Origin: an uncultured Monoglobus sp.
GTDB lineage: Bacteria > Bacillota > Clostridia > Monoglobales > Monoglobaceae
Direction of reading: 5' to 3'
DNA: 38,082 bases
Assembly: GCA_947624495.1 (NCBI GenBank)
Contig: CANQKP010000003.1
Coordinates: forward strand, 1 to 38,082
The notes beneath the pieces are model-generated. The model worked only from the letters and a program-made list of their open reading frames with translations, did no database searches and was not told the DNA's origin. A program made the position numbers and the translations under genes. Of this stretch, positions 3,638 to 36,907 are shown piece after piece. How positions within the stretch are numbered: the first letter of the stretch is position 1; each line of letters begins with the position of its first letter.

Positions 3638-4555
3638 TTATTCTCCGTAAAATTCCGGTATGTAGCGGCTGCCTACCGCTCCCGGCTCCTGTATATACAT
3701 ATTCTCGATACCCATATCTGCGCAGTACCCCACAAGCGCCTCGTACTGCGCACGATTAAGCTCCCGGTCAAGCTCCGGAAACGACTTTCCGATTGCGGGC
3801 ATCCTTGTGTACTGGCTCATCAGACTGATGTATATATCATTCCCGTAAGCCATGTACAGATGATCTATCACCTTTTTGCTCTCAAAAAGCAGTCCCGGCA
3901 GCATAAGATGCCGCACAATGACTCCCTTTTGCATTATTCCGTTTATATCAAACACGCACGTTCCGACCTGCCGCACCATTTCGTCTATTGCCGCAAACGC
4001 TTTTTCAAAATAATCATCCGCCATGGAATACCGCTTTGCATATTCTTTTGATATGTACTTCATATCGGGCAGATATACATCCACATATCCCTTAAGCTGT
4101 CTGATAGTCTCCGCTTTTTCGTATCCGCCGCAGTTATAGACCACCGGCAGGCTGAGTCCGCGGCTTTTGGCTATGTCAAGCGCCGTTATTATCCCCGGAA
4201 GATGCTGGGTCGGCGTTACCAGATTTATGTTGTGAACGCCTCTGTCTTTCAGTTCAAGCATTTTTTCGGCAAGCTCTTCGGGCGTTATGTCAAATCCCTT
4301 TCCGCCGTGGCTGATCTCGCTGTTCTGACAGTAAACGCAGCCTAAGGTGCAGCCCGAAAAGAACACCGCGCCCGAACCGTTTGTTCCGGATATGCACGGC
4401 TCCTCCCAATAATGCGGCTCGCACCTGGCTATGCGGACTCTGTCGGTCATGCCGCAGTATCCCCGCTGACCCGCGGCGCGGTTTACACCGCATTCCCTTG
4501 GGCAGAGGCGGCAGTCCGCGTATGCCTTATCTGAGTTTATACATTCTGATAACAT
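3638..4555 (-). CDS. Radical SAM protein, PflX/PflA-related
   Basis: 305 residues. The radical SAM cluster motif CX3CX2C is seen as CTLGCVYC around residue 73, preceded by FFSGC. The N-terminus has a further Cys set, CRLCPRECGVNR and RGYCG, typical of the COG1313 (PflX) group related to pyruvate formate-lyase activating enzyme. These proteins use a [4Fe-4S] cluster and S-adenosylmethionine to make a radical; the substrate of this subgroup is not established. The ATG overlaps the end of the upstream membrane-protein gene by 29 nt, which suggests coupling. No formate lyase gene is nearby, so a PFL-activating role should not be assumed. Confidence 0.88.
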   Translation of the reverse strand: MLSECINSDKAYADCRLCPRECGVNRAAGQRGYCGMTDRVRIARCEPHYWEEPCISGTNGSGAVFFSGCTLGCVYCQNSEISHGGKGFDITPEELAEKMLELKDRGVHNINLVTPTQHLPGIITALDIAKSRGLSLPVVYNCGGYEKAETIRQLKGYVDVYLPDMKYISKEYAKRYSMADDYFEKAFAAIDEMVRQVGTCVFDINGIMQKGVIVRHLMLPGLLFESKKVIDHLYMAYGNDIYISLMSQYTRMPAIGKSFPELDRELNRAQYEALVGYCADMGIENMYIQEPGAVGSRYIPEFYGE

Positions 4556-15974: not shown

Positions 15975-16003
15975 AACTGAGTGTCTCACCGAGACACTCA
16001 GTT
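15975..16003. terminator. Bidirectional hairpin between convergent genes
   Basis: A 13-bp perfect stem, AACTGAGTGTCTC and its complement, surrounds a 3-nt loop. It lies between the plus-strand unknown gene and the minus-strand GH3 gene and touches the latter's stop codon. The flanks are AT-rich on both sides but without a long U-tract. Confidence 0.65.
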
Positions 16004-18293
16004 AATATTTTAAATCAATTATCAGCTTCAAAATATTTTTTGCGGCGCGCTGAAGTTCGCCCAAAGACAGACTTCCGTCCTTGAGGCTGACCAAGGTGTT
16101 GTCGCCGCCGCTGTTGTTCGCAGCGGATGAATGAACCATATATATATCGCCGCCGGCACGCAGCATGGCGGCGGTATTTTTTGTCGAGGCTCCGCCGCAT
16201 TTTCCGAGATATGCCCACCAGTCGGTCATAACCATACCGTCAAACCCAAGCTCATCTCTGATAATACCGGTAATAATATCATAGTTCGAGCCGCTTTGAA
16301 CGCCGTTGACCGGATTGTAAGCGGTCATCAGAGCCTTGACCTCGGACAGCTCTAATGCATACTCTATCGGCTTTAAATATATTTCCCTCAGCGCCCTTTC
16401 GGACACCACGGAATTAAGCCGCTTGCGGTTATGCTCTCTGTTGTTTGCGGCGATGTGTTTAAGCACGCCGCGAACGCCTTTAGAGTTGAGTCCGCTCATC
16501 GCGGCTGCCGCCATAGCCCCGCTCATGTAAGGGTCCTCGGAAAAATACTCAAAGTTCCTGCCGCACAGCGGATTTCTGTGAATATTGACACCGGGTCCCA
16601 GCAGCAGCTCCACATGATTTTCAAGCATTTCACCGCCGATACGGGAGTATATCTCCTGCACAAGCCGCTTGTTCCAAGTACAGGCAAGCATAGTTCCGAT
16701 TGGGACCAGCGCCGCCTTGTCGCCGTTATCAAACCGAAGTCCGGACGGACCGTCAGTTCCCGCAACCGCAGGAACACCAAAGTCCAGGAGCCGATCCGAC
16801 ACACCGCCGAAGGCTGTTCCGGTACCGGGGCGCACACGACTGCTTCCCATACCCTCGCCTCGGCACAGGCAAGCCAGATCTTCGCTTGCGAGCTGCGCTA
16901 AAAAGTCATCAAGCGCGGCTTTGCCGAGCTTAACGTCGTTAAGCTTTATGCCTCTGTCGCCGGTAAACTCAATTTCCGGAGCGGGCTTTCTTCGTTCCGC
17001 CGGCTCGGACGCGCGTACGGGAACAGGCTCATAAACCGGCTCTCCGTTTTTAAAGCCCCGGAGCCGCTCAAAAGGCTCCGTCGGCGCGCCGAAAGACTTA
17101 CACTTCCTTATGACCTCGTCCTTATAAAGCTCAAGACTTATTGCGCAGCTCCTGTCACGGACGTTTTTCCCTATCACGAATTTATATAATCCCTTATCGA
17201 CCCGCAGGCAAAAGTTTTTGTCGTCATAATACGAAAGCCTCGACAGCGGAAATTTTATGACAAGCTCCTCGCTGCCGCCCGGACCCAGCGTCTCGGTCTT
17301 GGCAAACTCCACCAAAGCTATTTCTGGGCGTGGAAGTCTGCTTTTCGGCGGTACCGCATATACCTGTACCACCTCTTTGCCCGAAGTTCCGCCTATGTTT
17401 TTTACATTGACCCTGAGGCTGACGGAGCCGCCCGACATCGAAACCGAATTGCAGCTTATCTCAAACTCGGTATACGACAGCCCGAACCCGAACGGGTACA
17501 TGACCTTTTCGGGACAGAATGTCTCGAAGTACCTGTAGCCGACAAAAATGTCCTCGCGGTAAAAGTTCCGGTCATCGCCGCCAAAATCAGCGGATGACGG
17601 ATAGTCGGCGTATCTTACCGCTATCGTGTCGGTCAGCCTGCCGCAGGGCGAAATGCCGGTCAGCACATCCGCGACCGCCTCGCCGCCCTCCTGACCGCCC
17701 TGCCAAATATAAAGAACGGCGTCAATATCAAATTCACCGACCCAGCCCATGTCTATAACGCCGGGTACATTCAGGATCGCAATAACCTTTTTAAAATACT
17801 TACGCGCCGCTTTAAGCGTTGCACGCTCGGCTTCGGTCAGCAGCCAGCCGCCCGGTCCGAAATAGCTGTCCTGCTCCTCGCCTGAGGAGCGCCCGATAAC
17901 AACGACCGCCGTGTCGGCGTTTTTCGCCGCGCGTCTCAAAGGAAGCTTTAAAATTTCAGGCTCCCGCTGAAACAGCGGACGGGACGCCCACATACCCCCT
18001 CCGGTCTCTATCGGGTGGCGGCGCGTCCAGCGGGTATAAAATTTTTCAAGTTTTTCGTCCGTTTCCACTCCGTTTCTCTTAAGTGACGACAGAATGTCGG
18101 TTTTGTACTCGGTATTAACGCTGCCGCCGGAACCGGTCCCGCCCGCATTATAGTCTATCTGGCACCTGCCCAGCAGCGCGATTTTTTCGCCGCGCTTAAG
18201 GGGCAGTGCGTTGTTTTTATTTTCAAGCATAACTATGCCCTCAGCTGCCGCCTGGCGGGCAGCGGCAAGAGTCATTTTCATAGCACCAGTCAA
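16002..18293 (-). CDS. GH3 beta-glycosidase with permuted domain order
   Basis: About 763 residues. The track start is GTG at 18329, but AAGGTG lies 7 nt before a TTG at 18293, which I prefer; an ATG at 18281 is also possible. Numbering here follows the track. Residues 20-285 are the GH3 alpha/beta sandwich domain (AAEGIVMLENKNNALPL; VMYPFGFGLSYTEFE), and 286-400 is the fibronectin III-like domain. Residues 470-775 are the TIM-barrel (GTDGPSGLRF; FEYFSEDPYMSG; VLKHIAANNREHN), with the nucleophile Asp703 in GMVMTDWWAY. This order is the reverse of usual GH3 enzymes but is known from Ruminococcus albus and Butyrivibrio enzymes. No signal peptide, so likely intracellular cleavage of imported oligosaccharides. 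Confidence 0.92.
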   Translation of the reverse strand: MTGAMKMTLAAARQAAAEGIVMLENKNNALPLKRGEKIALLGRCQIDYNAGGTGSGGSVNTEYKTDILSSLKRNGVETDEKLEKFYTRWTRRHPIETGGGMWASRPLFQREPEILKLPLRRAAKNADTAVVVIGRSSGEEQDSYFGPGGWLLTEAERATLKAARKYFKKVIAILNVPGVIDMGWVGEFDIDAVLYIWQGGQEGGEAVADVLTGISPCGRLTDTIAVRYADYPSSADFGGDDRNFYREDIFVGYRYFETFCPEKVMYPFGFGLSYTEFEISCNSVSMSGGSVSLRVNVKNIGGTSGKEVVQVYAVPPKSRLPRPEIALVEFAKTETLGPGGSEELVIKFPLSRLSYYDDKNFCLRVDKGLYKFVIGKNVRDRSCAISLELYKDEVIRKCKSFGAPTEPFERLRGFKNGEPVYEPVPVRASEPAERRKPAPEIEFTGDRGIKLNDVKLGKAALDDFLAQLASEDLACLCRGEGMGSSRVRPGTGTAFGGVSDRLLDFGVPAVAGTDGPSGLRFDNGDKAALVPIGTMLACTWNKRLVQEIYSRIGGEMLENHVELLLGPGVNIHRNPLCGRNFEYFSEDPYMSGAMAAAAMSGLNSKGVRGVLKHIAANNREHNRKRLNSVVSERALREIYLKPIEYALELSEVKALMTAYNPVNGVQSGSNYDIITGIIRDELGFDGMVMTDWWAYLGKCGGASTKNTAAMLRAGGDIYMVHSSAANNSGGDNTLVSLKDGSLSLGELQRAAKNILKLIIDLKY

Positions 18294-18397
18294 AAAATCA
18301 CACCTTTTTATGATATATTCGATATTCACTTAATCGGTAGTGTCGGTTTTATTTTAAACTTATAATATATAATATACCACATACCCATATAAATTGC

Positions 18398-18460: not shown

Positions 18461-21400
18461 CTATTTAAGCTTTGAATATGCGCCCAAGTTATACACGTTG
18501 GCAAAGCCCATTGCCTTTGCTGTCTCGACCGCTTTTGCCGCTCTGCCTCCGCTTGCGCAGCAGAAGATAATAACAGCGTCCTTGCCGTAGTCACTAAGAC
18601 CCGCCTCGATCTCATCTAACGGAATGTTTATCGAGCCTTCCGCAGACTCCACGGCGTACTCATCGGCGGTACGCACATCGATCAGCACCGCGCCGTTTGA
18701 TAACATAACGCTCGCCTCGTCAGCCTCTATCGAGTCGCCGCCCAGATCGCTCATAGGGATTTGGAGCTCTGTCGTTCCGTCGCCGGCGGTCATTACGCCG
18801 CCCTCGATAGTCATTGTCTTAAGGTCAATATCCGCAGCCTTCCTGAGCTGATAGCATTTTGCGCAGTCGGTGAACATAATTACCAGTCCGCCGTCGCACG
18901 CCGCGTACAGCCTTCCCTTATACTCGGCTATGGCATTGATATTATACTTGTCGCCATAGCTGTAGGGTATGTCGGATGAGTAGAAGTAATCGGTTGAGAG
19001 CTGATTGAGCGCTCCGCCGAAACCGACCGTAAACACCTTGCTCTCTCCGGTCAGGTCGTTCTTGGTCAGAACAGCCTCTGTGCCGTTCCAGCTTACATTC
19101 TGGACCGGTCTGTCATAGTCCTCCGCCGCATCGGCAGCATCGCTGTCAAGTCTGCCGGCGGACATAGCTTCCGCCGAACCGTAATACTCAACAACAATTG
19201 CATAGAGCTGCTTGTTGGAGCTTCCGCCATACACGTATACCGGAGCCTTTTTCGTGATCTCAAGACTTGCCATCGCAACTCCGTTTCCGCCAGGCGTCTC
19301 GGTCTGGACCGTATCGCTCTGGTAAATCTTCATGCTGCGTTTTTCCTCGCTGCCTAAGAATATAGCCGAAACCCTGCATGGAACCTTTTTGGGCGTAAAG
19401 TAGAAGTTCCTGGTGCTTGTAGAGCCGCCGCCCGCCTGCCAAGCCTTGGTAAAATCATAGTTATACTCGTTTTCGTTGATATCTTTATACGTATATTTCG
19501 CCGCGGAGTCAACGATTTTCCATGAGCCGAAACCTGTCACTCCGTTTACGTTAACGCCCAGAGCGGTGCCGTCGGCATTATCGCCGGAAGTGAGCTTACT
19601 GTAGTCGTTGCCGTCCGTGTATTTGCTGTCCAGCGAGATAACCTCAATATCGCTGGGTACCGGCTCCGAATAGGTGTGTTCGACCGTATTGGACAGCACT
19701 TTCTTTTCGGAAGTATTATTGATCACATAGAGCTTGATACTGTCGCCCTCTGACGCGTTAAGTCCTGTTACTTCATAGTCGCCGCCGCCGTTTATTTTGT
19801 TGCTTGTAACGGTTCTGCCCGAAACCTCAGCAGCAAGTATAACGTCTCTGGGCGCCGCACTGCCGCGATATGTGACCGAAACCTTAAGGCTTCCGTTGGC
19901 TCTGTTGAGCACTTTGTCTATGGTGTAGGGCTGGTCATCGTTTGGAACATAGTGGTCGATCTTGAAGTAGTCAAGGTTTACGCCGTTGGTCTGGATATAG
20001 ATGTCGGCGCATCCGTACCGGTCAAGCTTTCCGGAAGTCCTCGCCTTTTCAAGAACATTCGAGTTTACATCAAGCTCGATCTCGGTCCATGCGTTCCATG
20101 CGCCCGTGGGGTCTGCCTGCTTTGACGCGATCACGTTTTCCGCTTTGTTGTCGGCAGCGAGGCTTACGTTGATCATACCGGCGTTTCTGCCTGCCACTCT
20201 GGCTGTGAACCTGTCTATGAACTCAATGTTTACCGACTTGAACAAGATCCATGACGTTCCTGTGCTGCCGGCGTCAAAACCGCCGCTGGAGCCTGACTGA
20301 TTGTCTCTCAGGTTCGCAGTTCCTCCGTCATCGCCGGTTTCCGCCTCGATCTGGGTGTCAATTCTGATAACCTGTCTCGCGCAGGTTCCGGCTTCAATGT
20401 TCGCTGCCGTCACCTGAATTACACCGTTGCCGTATACTGTAAGCTCACCTGTCTCGCTGTTTATTTCCGCAACCTTACGTCCGGACGAGTCAAGCTTGGT
20501 CGCCTGCCACATGAGCTTTGAGTTGTCAACCGGGTTTCCGGACGCATCAACCGCGCGCAGCTGACCGACATAGGGTGTTGTTTCGGTTACAGTGCCGATA
20601 GCTCCGTTATACATCGGAATTCCGCCGTCGCGGTAATCTATCACTCCGTCCTCCAGGAACTTGGTGCTGCCCGAATCAATAGTATAGCTTACGCTGAGAG
20701 CGTCCATGGGAACCGACTTAAGCTCAGCGCTAATTGACTCAACCAGAGCTTCAACATCGTCCTTGGTTACCGCATTGTTTACCGCCTTGACACCGTTATC
20801 GTAAACGCTCTTAAGCTTCGCCCGGCTCTCGGCTGTGTATGCCGTCTTGGGAAGCGCGTCATATACAGCCTTGATCTGCTCTTCCGCCGCAGCCTTGTCG
20901 CTGCTGCTTGCCTTTGACTTAAGCTTGTTCACAACCGGGAACGTTGTGCTCATCGAGTCCCCGCCGTATGTAACAGTCGCTGTGATCATCGCAACGCCCT
21001 GAGTTTTTCCGGACGAGACCCTGCCGTTTGCGTCAACGGCGGCAACATCATTGTTCGAGCTTGTGTAGCTTACCTGCGCCTGACTTAAATCCAACTTAAC
21101 CTCGTCGGTCATAACCGCGGAAAGGTTTGCATCAACGGGTTCTACAGTCTCAAGACCGGTACCGTCGTCCGCGATAAGACCGTTCACCGAAATACCGCTT
21201 GGAACAGCTTTGACGGTCTTAAGCTTTGAGTCAAGCGTTCCCGTGACCTCAAACTGAGCCGAATTCTTGGTATCAGCCGCGCTTGACGCCATATAGGCTG
21301 TGTATGTTCCGTCTAAAACTATATCCTTCTGAGCATCCTCATCAAAGAGGTACATATCTCTGACATTAAGCTCAATTGAAACCGTCTTGGTCTCGCCGGG

Positions 21401-24400
21401 TCGAAGCTCAACCTTTTCAAATCCCTTAAGCTGCTTCGCGGGAATAGTGCCCTGACCGGCGTTGGGGTGGGAAACGTAGAGCTGCACGACCTCTTTGCCT
21501 GCGGTCGAACCGGTATTCTTAACGTCAACCGAGAAGGTCAGCTTTCCGTTTGCATCAGCGCCCGATGCGGGAGCGCCTGTGCCTGCCTCGCCCACTGTCT
21601 TGGCGTAGCTGAGAGGCTTGATCGAATCGGTGTTCTCCCAGATATAAACCTTGGTCTTGCCGCCCTGAGGCTCGGTGATCTCTATGCTTTGGCTGCCGCT
21701 GCCGTCAACCTTAACGCTCTTGGTCTCGACCATGGTTGACTCTGAAAAATCAGAGTATGCCGCGGCTATAAGCGTTGCATCGGGAGCGCCGTCCTTCTTG
21801 GTGTATGTAACATTCAGCTTGCCGCCTGCGTATTCAGCGCCTGTTATCGTATAGGGATTGGGGTCCTCAACCGCATGACCGCCGCTCACCTTCATGTTCG
21901 AGTACTCAAAGCTTGTGTAGCTCAGACCATAGCCGAAGGGATAGACAGGCGTTCCGGTGTAGTACTGATATGTGTGACCGGGGTTTGTTCCGTCAGCCTG
22001 AATGTCATAGTTTGTATATCTGCCGTTGATAGCGCCGACCGTTTTGGTTCCGCCGGCAAGCTCCATTTTCTTAACATCGTCATTCTTATACCATGTTGTC
22101 GTCAGTCTGCCCGAAGGGTTGACCTGACCTGTCAGGACCTTGCCAAGTGCTGTGCCCTGTGTCTGACCGTTATACGAGGTCCACAGAATGGCTTTGCACT
22201 TATCCTTAAAGGGTTCAACATTGATCTGACCGACTGTTGACATAGCAACGATAGTCTTTTCGGGGTACGCGTTGCAAAGCGCCTGAACGTGCGCCTGTGT
22301 TGCCGGAAGGTCGATATTGCTTCTGTCCTTAGACTCGGACGAGTCCGCATCGCCCAAACCGGTCGAGTTCTTGGGAACCGTCGCCGCATACGCGATGATA
22401 ACGTCCGCCGCGTCAAGCTGCGACTTATAATTGTCAACCGAGAAGTCTGCAACCGTTCCCGTCGCTGTTATTATCATATCCGAAACTCCGTCATAACCGC
22501 CCGTGTCGGTTATATCCGCCGGGAGCTTGCAGGTCGCGTATGTGTCAAGGTCGGCTGTCGGCGAGGAGTTGACCGTCGCAAAGGAACCGACGCTGCCGTA
22601 AGCGATGTTGAACGAACCGCCTACGCGGCTGCCGGTCGACATCTCGACCTCAACATTTACCACGTCTTTAAAGTCAACATCCTTGATCACGGCGTACGCC
22701 GCGGGTGTTACGTCCTTAAGCTGACCGTCGCTTGTCAGGGTCATGCCCTTTACGTCGGCAGCCTTTGTAAGATCAACAGCTTTCCTGCTGCCGTTCTTTA
22801 ATACGAAATTAACACTCTTTACATTATAGAGCAGCGTCGAGTCGGAGAGAACTCCCAGATGATTTACTTCGGCATTCGCATTGACCTTTTTAACCTCCTC
22901 GGTTATACCCTGAACCGGAGTCTTGGTCTTTGTAGGCTCGCCTGTGTAGTCGCCGAGAACAAGCTTGTCGGCAAGATTGCCCACGATTGCGACATTGGAA
23001 ACGCTGCCGGTCAAGGGCAGAGCGTTGTCGTTCTTAAGCAGTACCCAGCTTTCCTCGGCAACATCCTCCGCCGCCTGAACGTTTGAGTCAGACTCGATGT
23101 CGCTTGATGTGTAGTCCCTGTAGGGTGCGTCCGCGTCGAACTCACCGGTCTTGAACCTCTGGAGGAACAGCTCGTATACAACGCGCTCCAGCTCCTGCTC
23201 GGAGAGGTATCCGTTCTCGACCGCCGCAACGCCGAGGTTCTGCGACTTGTTTCCGCCGCTCAGGTTACACTCAACATTAAGACCATTTTTGAATATTTCG
23301 GCTATGTACGCCTCATCAGGCAGACTTGCGTCGTCTGTCATGCCCTGCTTGAACTGGGCGCTGTTCAGCAAATATTCGCCGGCGCCGCAGTCGGAGGTGA
23401 CATATCCCGAAAATCCCCAGTTGCGTCTGAGCAGATCCTGAAGCAGATAGCTGTTGCCCAGCGAAGGGATGAAGTTGTAAACCAGCTGATCGCCTCTGTG
23501 AATGGTCGTCGCGTTGTATGAGGACATAACGGACGCCGGCATGGCGATCTCGGTAATGTTCTGGAACACTCTTGTATAGTAGTTCCTGAAGTTAAACTCG
23601 GTCATTTCCGAGGAGCCGCTGCTGCGGGCAGTCTCGTTGTTGTTTGCGGCAAAATGCTTAAGCGTCGCTATGGTCTTTAAATATTTCTCATCATCGCCCT
23701 GCATTCCCTTTACAAACGCGGCGCCCAGCTGACCGGTCAGATACGGATCCTCTCCGTAGGTCTCCTCGTTTCTGCCCCAGCGCGGGTCGCGCGCCATATT
23801 GACGGTCGGACTCCAGTACGAAAGGTTCAGTCTGCTGTTCTTGGCTCTCGCCTCGCCTGATGTAACGTCCGCCATTTTGAGGATAAGGTCCCTGTTCCAT
23901 GTATTGGACATTGAAAGAGCCGTGGGGAAGGATGTCGCCTTGCCCTGACGCGCAACGCCGTGCAGCGCTTCCTTCCAGTAATCATAAGCCGCAACGCCGA
24001 GTCTGTCTATAGCCTCTGCCTTGTATCCGATCTGGCTCACCTTTTCCTCAAGCGTCATTCTTGATACCAGATCCGCCGCTCTCTCCTCAAAAGACAGGCT
24101 TTCGTCCTGATAGGGAAGCACGACCGGCTTGGCATTACTGTCAAAAAACCTTATTGTGTGGTAGTTTCCGGCATAATCGTTCTTCACCTGTGTGGTAACG
24201 TTAAACTCAAGAGTCACCGGACCGGAAGCCGCGGTTGTTGACAAATCGGCTGTAAAGAGCTGATATGACGCCCACGCGCCTGTTGTAACTCCCTCCAAAG
24301 ACGCCACCTGAGTGCCGCCCACCTTGATCGTCACGGTTGTTGTGTTTTCGTTTCCGGCATAGAACTCAACCTTGTCATAACCCGAATTGTTAAGGTCCAG

Positions 24401-24676
24401 ATCGGGAAGGGTGATCTTCGCGCCGTTTTTCAGCCTGTCGGTAACGGGTGTGCCGTTTGCCACTCCGTCAACGCCGCTTGTCTTGACCGAGCCTCCGCCC
24501 GAAACCGAATCGGAGCCGAGAGCCAGCGTCGTCGAGCCGTCGTCATTTTTTGTCACTGTACCGTAATTCGCGGCAGCCGCCGAGGCATCGTCCACAGCCG
24601 CGAAAGCCGGAACGCAAAAGCTTGACAGCACCATCATAACGGACAGCACGAGCGCAGTAATTCTGCCTGATTTCAT
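18461..24676 (-). CDS. Secreted multidomain GH3 glycosidase (beta-xylosidase-like) with CBM modules and C-terminal rhodanese domain
   Basis: 2071 residues with a signal peptide at 1-27 (ending VPAFA). Approximate domains: 40-180 CBM6-like beta-sandwich; 195-515 GH3 barrel with GRNEETYGEDPYL, LKHFAANN and the nucleophile Asp429 in YVTSDCGAGEYL; 535-910 sandwich domain with a CBM-like insert near 600-750; 915-1145 fibronectin III-like region; 1160-1250 Big_2-like Ig; 1252-1325 helical; 1325-1440 Ig-like; 1440-1577 CBM6-like; 1580-1670 Ig-like; 1675-1835 further beta-sandwich; 1855-1985 unassigned with a CX2C; 1985-2071 rhodanese (LIDVRTADEY; CASGGRA). SDCG is typical of beta-xylosidases, so xylan oligomers are a reasonable substrate guess. 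No dockerin, LPXTG or S-layer anchor. AAAGGAGG lies 8 nt before the ATG. Confidence 0.92.
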   Translation of the reverse strand: MKSGRITALVLSVMMVLSSFCVPAFAAVDDASAAAANYGTVTKNDDGSTTLALGSDSVSGGGSVKTSGVDGVANGTPVTDRLKNGAKITLPDLDLNNSGYDKVEFYAGNENTTTVTIKVGGTQVASLEGVTTGAWASYQLFTADLSTTAASGPVTLEFNVTTQVKNDYAGNYHTIRFFDSNAKPVVLPYQDESLSFEERAADLVSRMTLEEKVSQIGYKAEAIDRLGVAAYDYWKEALHGVARQGKATSFPTALSMSNTWNRDLILKMADVTSGEARAKNSRLNLSYWSPTVNMARDPRWGRNEETYGEDPYLTGQLGAAFVKGMQGDDEKYLKTIATLKHFAANNNETARSSGSSEMTEFNFRNYYTRVFQNITEIAMPASVMSSYNATTIHRGDQLVYNFIPSLGNSYLLQDLLRRNWGFSGYVTSDCGAGEYLLNSAQFKQGMTDDASLPDEAYIAEIFKNGLNVECNLSGGNKSQNLGVAAVENGYLSEQELERVVYELFLQRFKTGEFDADAPYRDYTSSDIESDSNVQAAEDVAEESWVLLKNDNALPLTGSVSNVAIVGNLADKLVLGDYTGEPTKTKTPVQGITEEVKKVNANAEVNHLGVLSDSTLLYNVKSVNFVLKNGSRKAVDLTKAADVKGMTLTSDGQLKDVTPAAYAVIKDVDFKDVVNVEVEMSTGSRVGGSFNIAYGSVGSFATVNSSPTADLDTYATCKLPADITDTGGYDGVSDMIITATGTVADFSVDNYKSQLDAADVIIAYAATVPKNSTGLGDADSSESKDRSNIDLPATQAHVQALCNAYPEKTIVAMSTVGQINVEPFKDKCKAILWTSYNGQTQGTALGKVLTGQVNPSGRLTTTWYKNDDVKKMELAGGTKTVGAINGRYTNYDIQADGTNPGHTYQYYTGTPVYPFGYGLSYTSFEYSNMKVSGGHAVEDPNPYTITGAEYAGGKLNVTYTKKDGAPDATLIAAAYSDFSESTMVETKSVKVDGSGSQSIEITEPQGGKTKVYIWENTDSIKPLSYAKTVGEAGTGAPASGADANGKLTFSVDVKNTGSTAGKEVVQLYVSHPNAGQGTIPAKQLKGFEKVELRPGETKTVSIELNVRDMYLFDEDAQKDIVLDGTYTAYMASSAADTKNSAQFEVTGTLDSKLKTVKAVPSGISVNGLIADDGTGLETVEPVDANLSAVMTDEVKLDLSQAQVSYTSSNNDVAAVDANGRVSSGKTQGVAMITATVTYGGDSMSTTFPVVNKLKSKASSSDKAAAEEQIKAVYDALPKTAYTAESRAKLKSVYDNGVKAVNNAVTKDDVEALVESISAELKSVPMDALSVSYTIDSGSTKFLEDGVIDYRDGGIPMYNGAIGTVTETTPYVGQLRAVDASGNPVDNSKLMWQATKLDSSGRKVAEINSETGELTVYGNGVIQVTAANIEAGTCARQVIRIDTQIEAETGDDGGTANLRDNQSGSSGGFDAGSTGTSWILFKSVNIEFIDRFTARVAGRNAGMINVSLAADNKAENVIASKQADPTGAWNAWTEIELDVNSNVLEKARTSGKLDRYGCADIYIQTNGVNLDYFKIDHYVPNDDQPYTIDKVLNRANGSLKVSVTYRGSAAPRDVILAAEVSGRTVTSNKINGGGDYEVTGLNASEGDSIKLYVINNTSEKKVLSNTVEHTYSEPVPSDIEVISLDSKYTDGNDYSKLTSGDNADGTALGVNVNGVTGFGSWKIVDSAAKYTYKDINENEYNYDFTKAWQAGGGSTSTRNFYFTPKKVPCRVSAIFLGSEEKRSMKIYQSDTVQTETPGGNGVAMASLEITKKAPVYVYGGSSNKQLYAIVVEYYGSAEAMSAGRLDSDAADAAEDYDRPVQNVSWNGTEAVLTKNDLTGESKVFTVGFGGALNQLSTDYFYSSDIPYSYGDKYNINAIAEYKGRLYAACDGGLVIMFTDCAKCYQLRKAADIDLKTMTIEGGVMTAGDGTTELQIPMSDLGGDSIEADEASVMLSNGAVLIDVRTADEYAVESAEGSINIPLDEIEAGLSDYGKDAVIIFCCASGGRAAKAVETAKAMGFANVYNLGAYSKLK

Positions 24677-24729
24677 AATTTTTCCTCCTTTAAGTTTGTG
24701 TATAATATTATAATTTTCGAGCTTTATAT

Positions 24730-34300: not shown

Positions 34301-36907
34301 GTGAATATCCGCATCAAATTACGGCGTTTCGCGGCGCTTATTTTATGCGCGGCTTTATTGTTATGCCCTATGTCCCCCGCGCACGCGGCAATCGACGTTC
34401 AGTGGAGCGATACAAAGCTTTGCGACGGCGCGCTGTCCGCATCCGTATCGGGCGCGGTGGACGGACAATCGCTCATTTTAGCTGTATATTCCTGCGAAAG
34501 ACTCCTCAGTGTAAGCATTGTCGACGCGCAAAACGGCTCGGCTTTTGCAGAAACGACAATCGAAGCTGCGGCGGACACGGCAAAGCTGTTCCTGTGGGAT
34601 ATGGGGACCATAACGCCCGTATGTGATGTGCTGTCAACGCTTACGCGCGAGGACACGCCTACGCCCACGACTGTACCGACACCTACTCCAACGGCTGCGC
34701 CGACACCTACTCCAACGGTCGCGCCTACGCCTACACCAACGGCTGCGCCTACTCCTACACCCACGGCTTTACCAACACCTACTCCAACGGCTGTGCCGAC
34801 ACCTACTCCAACGGTCGCGCCTACTCCGACGCCCACGGCTGCGCCAACACCAACACCCACGGCTGCGCCCACTCCTACACCCACGGCTGTGCCGACACCT
34901 ACACCCACAGCTGTACCAACTCCTACGCCCACGGCTGTGCCAACACCTACACCAACGGTCGCGCCTACTCCGACACCCACAGCTGCGCCGGCACCTACAC
35001 CAACGGCTTTACCAACACCTACACCAACGGCTGCGTCTACTCCGACGCCCACGGCTGCGCCAACACCAACACCAACGGCTGCGCCCACTCCGACACCCAC
35101 GGCTGTTCCTACGCCGAATATCGACACATCGCGTGCGCCCGAAAGCTTAAGTGAGCTTCGATCCGCAAACGACGCGGCTGTTGACGAGCTTGCGAAGCTT
35201 CCGAAATTTGACGGTCGCGATTATAATATTGTAACGCCCGTCAGAAGTCAGATCGGCAATGTATGCTGGGCATACGCAGTTACGGGCGCGGCGGAAACAA
35301 GCGTCCTGCGCGAGGGAATTGACCCGAACGTGTCAGCCGCGTCGCTCGACCTGAACGATCGGCATCTCGCCTGCGCCTGCTTAAATCCCGCCCTTGATCC
35401 TTTGGGCAACAATCTGCCAGACTATCATGAATACTTCGACAATTGGTCAACCGGCGGCGAAACGTACGACGGCGTCTACGCGATGCTTCGCTGGAACGCG
35501 CCCGCGCTTCAGTCTGTTCCTATCACCGAGCCGATAAACAATCCCGCGTATCTGCTTGAAAACGCGATCAATCTCCCCGGCGGTGACATAGACGCTCTAA
35601 AACGCGCGATTGTCAAATACGGCGGCGTGGCGGCGGCATGGTACTGCAATTCCGCGCTGACCCAAAAGGGCTGCTATAACAACAATCTGTCCGCCGGTTT
35701 ATACGGGTTCGGACACGCGAGCGTTATAGTCGGCTGGGATGACAGCGTGGATAAAGACAGATTTTACTATGATGACAGGACCCCGTGTCCCGCTTCTCGC
35801 GACGGCGCGTGGATTTTGAAAAACAGTTGGGGCGCAGGTTTCGGCTTTAGCGGCTACTACTACGTATCCTATGACGTTCTGCTGTCCAAGTGCTTCGCTC
35901 TCGATATGTGTTCCCCCGATGAGTACGATAACAACTACCACTATGATACCACCGTGACAAGAAGCTCAAGCTGGACGCTTGATCCGGGCGAACGCGCCGC
36001 AGCGATGTTTGAAGCGAGAACGGCGTTTGCCGATAGGCACGAGTTTATTACCGGAGTAAACGTGGCTGTGGGAGAAGGCGGCAATTACAAAATAAAAGTG
36101 AAAATTTACAAAAATCCCGCCGCAGACTTTACCGACATATACAGTCCGGAAAACGACCCCGAATCCGGTGAACTTGCCGCAGAGGCGGAATCGGACTTAT
36201 TGATGTACCCCGGAGCGTACACGGTGAAGCTCGCGGAACCGGTGGAATTGGAGCAAAACCAGACATTCAGCGCGGTTGCGGAATTGACCGGCGGAGCAAA
36301 AATACGCGTTGTGACCGAATATGAAAAAACCTCCGGCATTTATCTTTCCAACGATATGACATTCTCCAATTCCGGCGAGGGCTGGACGAATACGCGTTTG
36401 GGCGCATCGCAAGTCGCTCAGATCAAGGTACTAACGAAAAACCTTCCTGTTTCGCAGCATAAGGATAATTCCCTTGATTACGCGGATATTCGCTTTGACT
36501 GGCGTGCCGTGACATATAACCAAACGGCTCAGCATCCCGAACTCACCGTATATTTTGACGGCGAACTGCTTACCGAGGGACAGGATTATACCGTTAGCTA
36601 CCCTGACTCCGTACGCATAGGACGGTTCTGGGCAGCCGTTACGGGCATAGGCGATTACAGCGGAAGCCGCTATATAGACTACTCCGTGAAGCAAGCGCCG
36701 GCTCCGCTTAATAAACCGCCGCGGATAATGGAGGTCACGGGCAATTACGAAACCTACGCGGAAGTGCCGCTGCCCGACGGTTGGGTCTGGGGCGATCCGA
36801 ATATGCCGGTCGCTTCGGAATGGTCCAATTACGCCATATACAAAGGCGACGACGCGGACTGCTATATGAACAATATGGCGGACGTCCGTGTCGTACTCAA
36901 ATTGTGA
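34301..36907 (+). CDS. Secreted papain-like (C1A) cysteine protease with Pro/Thr repeat linker
   Basis: 868 residues. The start is GTG at 34301 with GGGGAGG 8 nt upstream; an ATG two bases earlier is followed at once by TGA. A signal peptide spans about 1-30 (ending SPAHAA), and 31-115 is a small beta domain. Residues 120-274 are a Pro/Thr linker of about 19 eight-residue units. The protease domain (about 290-545) has the catalytic Cys322 in [13 protein letters not shown], His472 in [11 protein letters not shown] and Asn508 in [18 protein letters not shown] lectin-like beta domain (about 548-715) follows, then a C-terminal Ig-like repeat (about 730-805) and a short tail. No anchor motif is seen, so it is probably released or held by its sandwich domains. 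Confidence 0.92.
34658..35120 (+). repeat. In-frame 24-bp minisatellite encoding PTPTPTxx
   Basis: About 19 tandem 24-bp units encode Pro-Thr-Pro-Thr-Pro-Thr with a variable pair (TV, AA, VA, AL or AV). The order VA-AA-AL recurs at units 3-5 and 13-15, which suggests a larger block duplication. Every unit is a multiple of 3, so copy changes would alter linker length and not the frame. Confidence 0.9.

Follow-up and report, generated by a model that had tools for sequence, protein, structure and literature searches.

Rhodaneses are known both outside the cytoplasm and fused to other enzymes. PspE of E. coli is a periplasmic rhodanese made of a single, free-standing domain of ~85 aa, without a glycosidase and without a cysteine-bearing propeller module. 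ExtH of Geobacter and a rhodanese exported by Acidithiobacillus also act outside the cytoplasm, but their links are with electron conduits or the oxidation of sulfide and not with carbohydrate hydrolysis (PMC6148476). In CoADR-RHD and in persulfide dioxygenase-rhodanese proteins the domain is joined to an unrelated enzyme, and both kinds of fusion belong to cytoplasmic sulfur metabolism. Closest in wording are the families NF045521 (rhoda_near_glyco, a rhodanese near a glycosylhydrolase) and NF045728 (F510_1955 family glycosylhydrolase, a BNR-type lipoprotein glycosylhydrolase; PMC3948429). From these names we infer a pairing between the two families, in a system that, again judged by names, does not involve GH3. 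Among glycosidases, the GH3 beta-xylosidases XlnD and TrXyl3A have an active-site disulfide, which in TrXyl3A (nucleophile Asp291) lines subsite -1 (PMC8913315), but neither carries a rhodanese or a propeller module.

Here we analyse a window of 38,082 nucleotides from an uncultured Monoglobus sp., in which a giant GH3 protein ends in a rhodanese. Its tail resembles PspE in having a single rhodanese domain and may also share with PspE, ExtH and the Acidithiobacillus protein a location outside the cytoplasm; its GH3 part shares catalytic domain type and nucleophile-Cys with XlnD and TrXyl3A. The whole is a rhodanese joined to an unrelated enzyme, as in the fusions above, although here the partner is an exported glycosidase. 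An earlier note called rhodaneses normally cytoplasmic or free-standing, but exported ones do have precedents in PspE, ExtH and the Acidithiobacillus protein; the rhodanese-near-glycosylhydrolase family name was likewise already in use. However, our literature searches, at the level of abstracts, returned no paper describing a rhodanese fused to GH3 or to GH27, and the rhodanese-tailed GH3 is not covered above cut-off by any NCBIfam model. The fusion and the operon pairing described below thus appear undescribed in the abstracts searched, while domain-architecture databases may show the fusion.

Domain layout of the GH3-rhodanese protein

The protein of 2071 aa is encoded in a single unbroken frame on the minus strand (18461..24676 with the stop, 18464-24676 without), and all coordinates of its parts refer to that strand. 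Its ATG is preceded by AAAGGAGG, judged a good ribosome-binding site (region 24677..24691, aaaggaggaaaaatt), and residues 1-27 (MKSGRITALVLSVMMVLSSFCVPAFA; 24596..24676) form a probable Sec signal peptide, recognised by eye. Pfam profiles then place the GH3 N-terminal catalytic domain (PF00933, residues 236-432, 23381..23971), the GH3 C-terminal domain with an insertion (PF01915, residues 545-920, 21917..23044), an Fn3-like domain (residues 1062-1132, 21281..21493), a bacterial Ig-like Big_2 domain (residues 1199-1245, 20942..21082) and a CBM6 carbohydrate-binding module (CBM_6, residues 1444-1573, 19958..20347). After these comes an unnamed domain ending in ...YGGSSNKQLYAIVVEYYG (residues 1678-1833, 19178..19645). 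No SLH, LPXTG or dockerin element was found on the fused protein in the Pfam scan.

Just downstream (16002-18329, minus strand) lies a second GH3 without an apparent signal peptide and with permuted order, GH3_C ahead of GH3_N; related genomes also have its homologue 3' of the corresponding gene. Elsewhere in the window, the plus strand (34301-36907) encodes a peptidase of the papain family (C1) that is probably exported and matches Lectin_like weakly.

The solved structures closest to the GH3 core are exo-beta-xylosidases. Because its score against the NCBIfam Xyl3A xylosidase equivalog (459.9 vs a cut-off of 1250) is far under the cut-offs of the NCBIfam xylosidase models, we call the GH3 xylosidase-like, without a substrate assignment. 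By comparison with Asp291 of TrXyl3A, the catalytic nucleophile is predicted to be Asp429, directly followed by Cys430 (23387..23392), and Cys470 (23267..23269), 40 residues on, would pair with Cys430 in an active-site disulfide of the xylosidase type. Such a cysteine pair, at the nucleophile and ~40 residues beyond, occurs in all rhodanese-partnered GH3s whose catalytic domain was read. It is not an exclusive mark of them, as it is also present in four GH3s without an adjacent rhodanese (L188, L189, L190, L192).

The C-terminal domain (residues 1985-2064, 18485..18724) is by profile and predicted fold a bona fide rhodanese. It matches PF00581 with 51.3 bits (E 1.7e-13; Pfam cut-off 22.2), and in an AlphaFold model of residues 1849-2071 (mean pLDDT 92.5, pTM 0.83) the rhodanese part lies ~2 A from the solved rhodaneses 3mzz, 3iwh and GlpE (1gmx) over ~94 columns. 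The six-residue loop CxxGxR is present as CASGGR (residues 2040-2045, 18542..18559) with a catalytic-type cysteine; the rhodanese is presumably catalytically active. The earlier description of a rhodanese in frame with a signal-peptide protein and with an intact CX4R loop is therefore confirmed by the single frame, the Pfam match and the model (the signal peptide by eye), and all the motifs that it quoted were found. It had overlooked a cysteine-bearing, propeller-like module of ~130 aa directly before the rhodanese, which is part of the feature (residues 1856-1984, 18725..19111; about three sheet units in the model). This module holds an invariant Cys1927 (18896..18898) and an invariant C-A-K-C motif with Cys1938 and Cys1941 (18854..18865).

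Conservation and ancestry of the tail

Named records with the fusion belong to uncultured Monoglobus and to related Clostridia, most of them sampled from the gut of rabbits, and to Candidatus Monoglobus merdigallinarum. The window's own genome has exactly three rhodanese matches, every one the tail of a giant GH3 frame, and across 12 genomes of the genus 32 of 34 matches are GH3 tails, the exceptions being a 145-aa protein (G008) and a 393-aa protein (G005). These tails sort into three paralogous clades, A, B (the window protein) and C, that are retained across several genera and families, which rules out a one-off architecture. By eye, the N-termini of clades A and B are signal-peptide-like, as a PspE-like location would need, whereas clade C proteins have no apparent signal peptide, start directly at the GH3 and are richer in cysteine, features consistent with a cytoplasmic location. 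In several of the Cys-rich clade C loci (L047, L060-L067, L074) the loop reads CSRGIW and not CxxGxR.

The rhodanese cysteine and the upstream C...C-x-K-C motif (Y..C..G...C.KC) are kept in 38/38 tails examined. The loop ends in R or K in 32 of the 38 and in W in the remainder, all of clade C. Median dN/dS is alike for the rhodanese (0.16-0.21, about 0.2) and the GH3 domain (0.13-0.17), and the tail is under purifying selection. An AraC-type regulator (MVPFYE.QPSD...) stands divergently beside many of the tailed GH3 genes (L082, L083, L088, L092-L097, L102, L104, L105, L142, L143), and at one family f16 locus (L143, ~4408-4410 of G394:C1) a single in-frame TAG cuts the rhodanese-tailed GH3 into two frames.

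A profile built on the ~130-aa region before the rhodanese found matches in 18 of 391 genomes of the class. Besides further GH3 fusions, including those of family f16, these were proteins of 445-531 aa in which propeller-like repeats are followed by the same cysteine motif and then by a rhodanese, with a secreted or lipoprotein-like N-terminus. One match (G329/L125) looks like a false positive, and in another protein (L141/L122, G070:C4:21430-22680, minus strand) one in-frame TGA interrupts the frame in the linker before the rhodanese, through pseudogenization, sequence error or something else. The separate proteins show sub-threshold similarity to NF045521 (25.7 vs a cut-off of 145) and NF045728, with all scores far under the curated cut-offs. 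In a rhodanese tree of 93 columns, and hence of little resolution, tails and separate proteins group together (88/83), apart from free-standing rhodaneses. The pre-rhodanese module resembles the end of a beta-propeller protein and may be the remnant of one, an assignment drawn from the repeats, a sub-threshold Pfam propeller match and the strand pattern. The likely order of events is separate proteins first and fusion later.

Pairing of rhodaneses with glycosidase genes

All six separate propeller-rhodanese genes found (L087, L138, L139, L140, L141, L184) lie directly upstream of a gene for a secreted xylosidase-type GH3 on the same strand. The first five loci come from four genomes (two from G256, one each from G203 and G070, and L087); the sixth, separated from its GH3 by a 3-base gap, belongs to another class of the same phylum (G557). 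As the four genomes have 2-6 GH3 genes each, we estimate the chance of 5/5 adjacency at ~2e-14 if the loci are independent. L087 corresponds to the fusion divided exactly in two: its first gene encodes an exported tail protein of 267 aa, and the GH3 that follows ends in the unnamed domain of residues 1678-1833 (...YGGSSNK...), the one from which the window protein continues into the tail. At L138 and L139 the GH3s end in dockerin-like repeats (by eye).

Since the two parts are fused in some lineages and adjacent in others, they probably cooperate, and the arrangement suggests that propeller-rhodanese and GH3 probably work together outside the cell. The paralogues, the split operon form and the invariant cysteines together make a functional partnership with the GH3 likely, without singling out any of the roles guessed at in the earlier note (redox sensing, sulfide handling or a protein-protein tag). 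Neighbouring genes, assigned by eye from sequence, include AraC-type regulators, two-component systems and sugar transport genes and indicate a carbohydrate context, and no sulfur or cyanide genes are among the annotated neighbours in the window. A mobile C-terminal tag carried by many enzyme types was considered and rejected, as in the loci inspected the tail was seen only fused to or beside a GH3.

The search for further glycosidase-rhodanese fusions that the earlier note had proposed recovered the same GH3 fusion in related genomes, and it also yielded a second kind. Full-length GH27 alpha-galactosidases with a C-terminal rhodanese occur in three families, in 10 of the 391 class genomes (L174-L179, L185, L186; e.g., L177:4549-6105, plus strand). 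They are ~500 aa long, have no obvious signal peptide and look intracellular, and their loop reads CATGKR or similar; a further, more divergent copy was seen at G149/L179. Because their tails form a clade of their own in the rhodanese tree (98/89), a rhodanese probably joined glycosidases at least twice.

Candidate roles of the tail

We hold with moderate confidence that the tail is functional, a true and conserved module that is homologous to the separate exported propeller-rhodanese and fused to the C-terminus of its operon partner, a secreted xylosidase-type GH3. For its mechanism, the likeliest candidate, put forward tentatively and by analogy, is thiol/persulfide exchange acting on the GH3 cysteine pair. 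The rhodanese cysteine, aided by the nearby C...C-x-K-C cysteines, would perform the exchange and so fix the redox state of the two cysteines next to the GH3 nucleophile, with other surface thiols as further possible targets. The setting would be cells without recognisable DsbA or VKOR: profile searches of 8 genomes, with positive controls, found no DsbA, Thioredoxin_4 or VKOR. The analogy is to exported PspE standing in for DsbA in E. coli, where overproduced PspE reportedly rescues a dsbA mutant, a result ascribed to Chng et al. from 2012. With the tail profile, PspE (2jtq) ranks among the top PDB entries, and of the single-domain matches that have a known name it is the best. Several points count against this mechanism. 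The cysteine pair is a trait of the GH3 subclass and not of the rhodanese partnership, and fungal GH3 enzymes with the pair carry no rhodanese. Clade C keeps the tail without an apparent signal peptide, several of its members having a degenerate loop that ends in W. Anaerobic Clostridia commonly do without Dsb proteins in any case, and in the reducing gut disulfides may not form. A more specific version of thiol/persulfide exchange is rather unlikely. In it the rhodanese with its C...CxKC relay, whether built in or supplied by the operon partner, would be dedicated to the exported GH3 as a persulfide-based catalyst, forming its active-site disulfide or controlling it; this would amount to substrate-dedicated oxidative folding or a redox switch in anaerobes without Dsb.

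The invariant cysteines could instead be structural, as a metal site or a disulfide, in a propeller-rhodanese that serves mainly as a binding fold, holding the GH3 at the cell surface or joining it to other proteins. This is a possible though doubtful account, which would fit the missing anchoring elements on the fused protein, the dockerin-like repeats at L138 and L139, the lipoprotein-like or secreted N-terminus of the separate partner and the degenerate loop in part of clade C. However, if binding were the only function, one would not expect the catalytic cysteine to be preserved in every tail and R or K at the loop end in most. Classical rhodanese chemistry would be at work if the domain converted cyanide or reactive sulfur species freed by the cleavage of plant glycosides at the cell surface; the host bacterium lives in a herbivore (rabbit) gut, and gut microbiota are known from the literature to release cyanide from amygdalin. 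Such detoxification or sulfur handling is nevertheless improbable, as the GH3 core is xylosidase-like and not beta-glucosidase-like, the annotated neighbours lack sulfur and cyanide genes, and the GH27-rhodanese fusions are not expected to free cyanide.

That the tail is a near-neutral leftover of fusion, kept because it is harmless, could draw on the loop variation of clade C but is highly improbable in view of purifying selection as strong as on the catalytic domain, the tail's retention in all three paralogous clades, which extend over several genera and families, and a split pairing that is itself conserved. The earlier note had named a frameshift that joins two genes as fatal to its reading. 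Neither this nor a chimaeric assembly or a missed stop found any support, and all three can be dismissed: many independent genomes, including one that is a single 2.76-Mb contig, have the same in-frame architecture, which is the product of neither chance nor frameshift, and the high-confidence AlphaFold model spans the junction.

The favoured reading, a functional module fused to its operon partner, links extracellular sulfur or thiol chemistry to plant-fibre degradation in gut bacteria. The genetic pairing is strong: one set of lineages has the fusion, and others have the two genes side by side. Should the rhodanese service the glycosidase, this would hint at the way in which anaerobes that lack recognisable Dsb enzymes handle cysteines in the enzymes they secrete.
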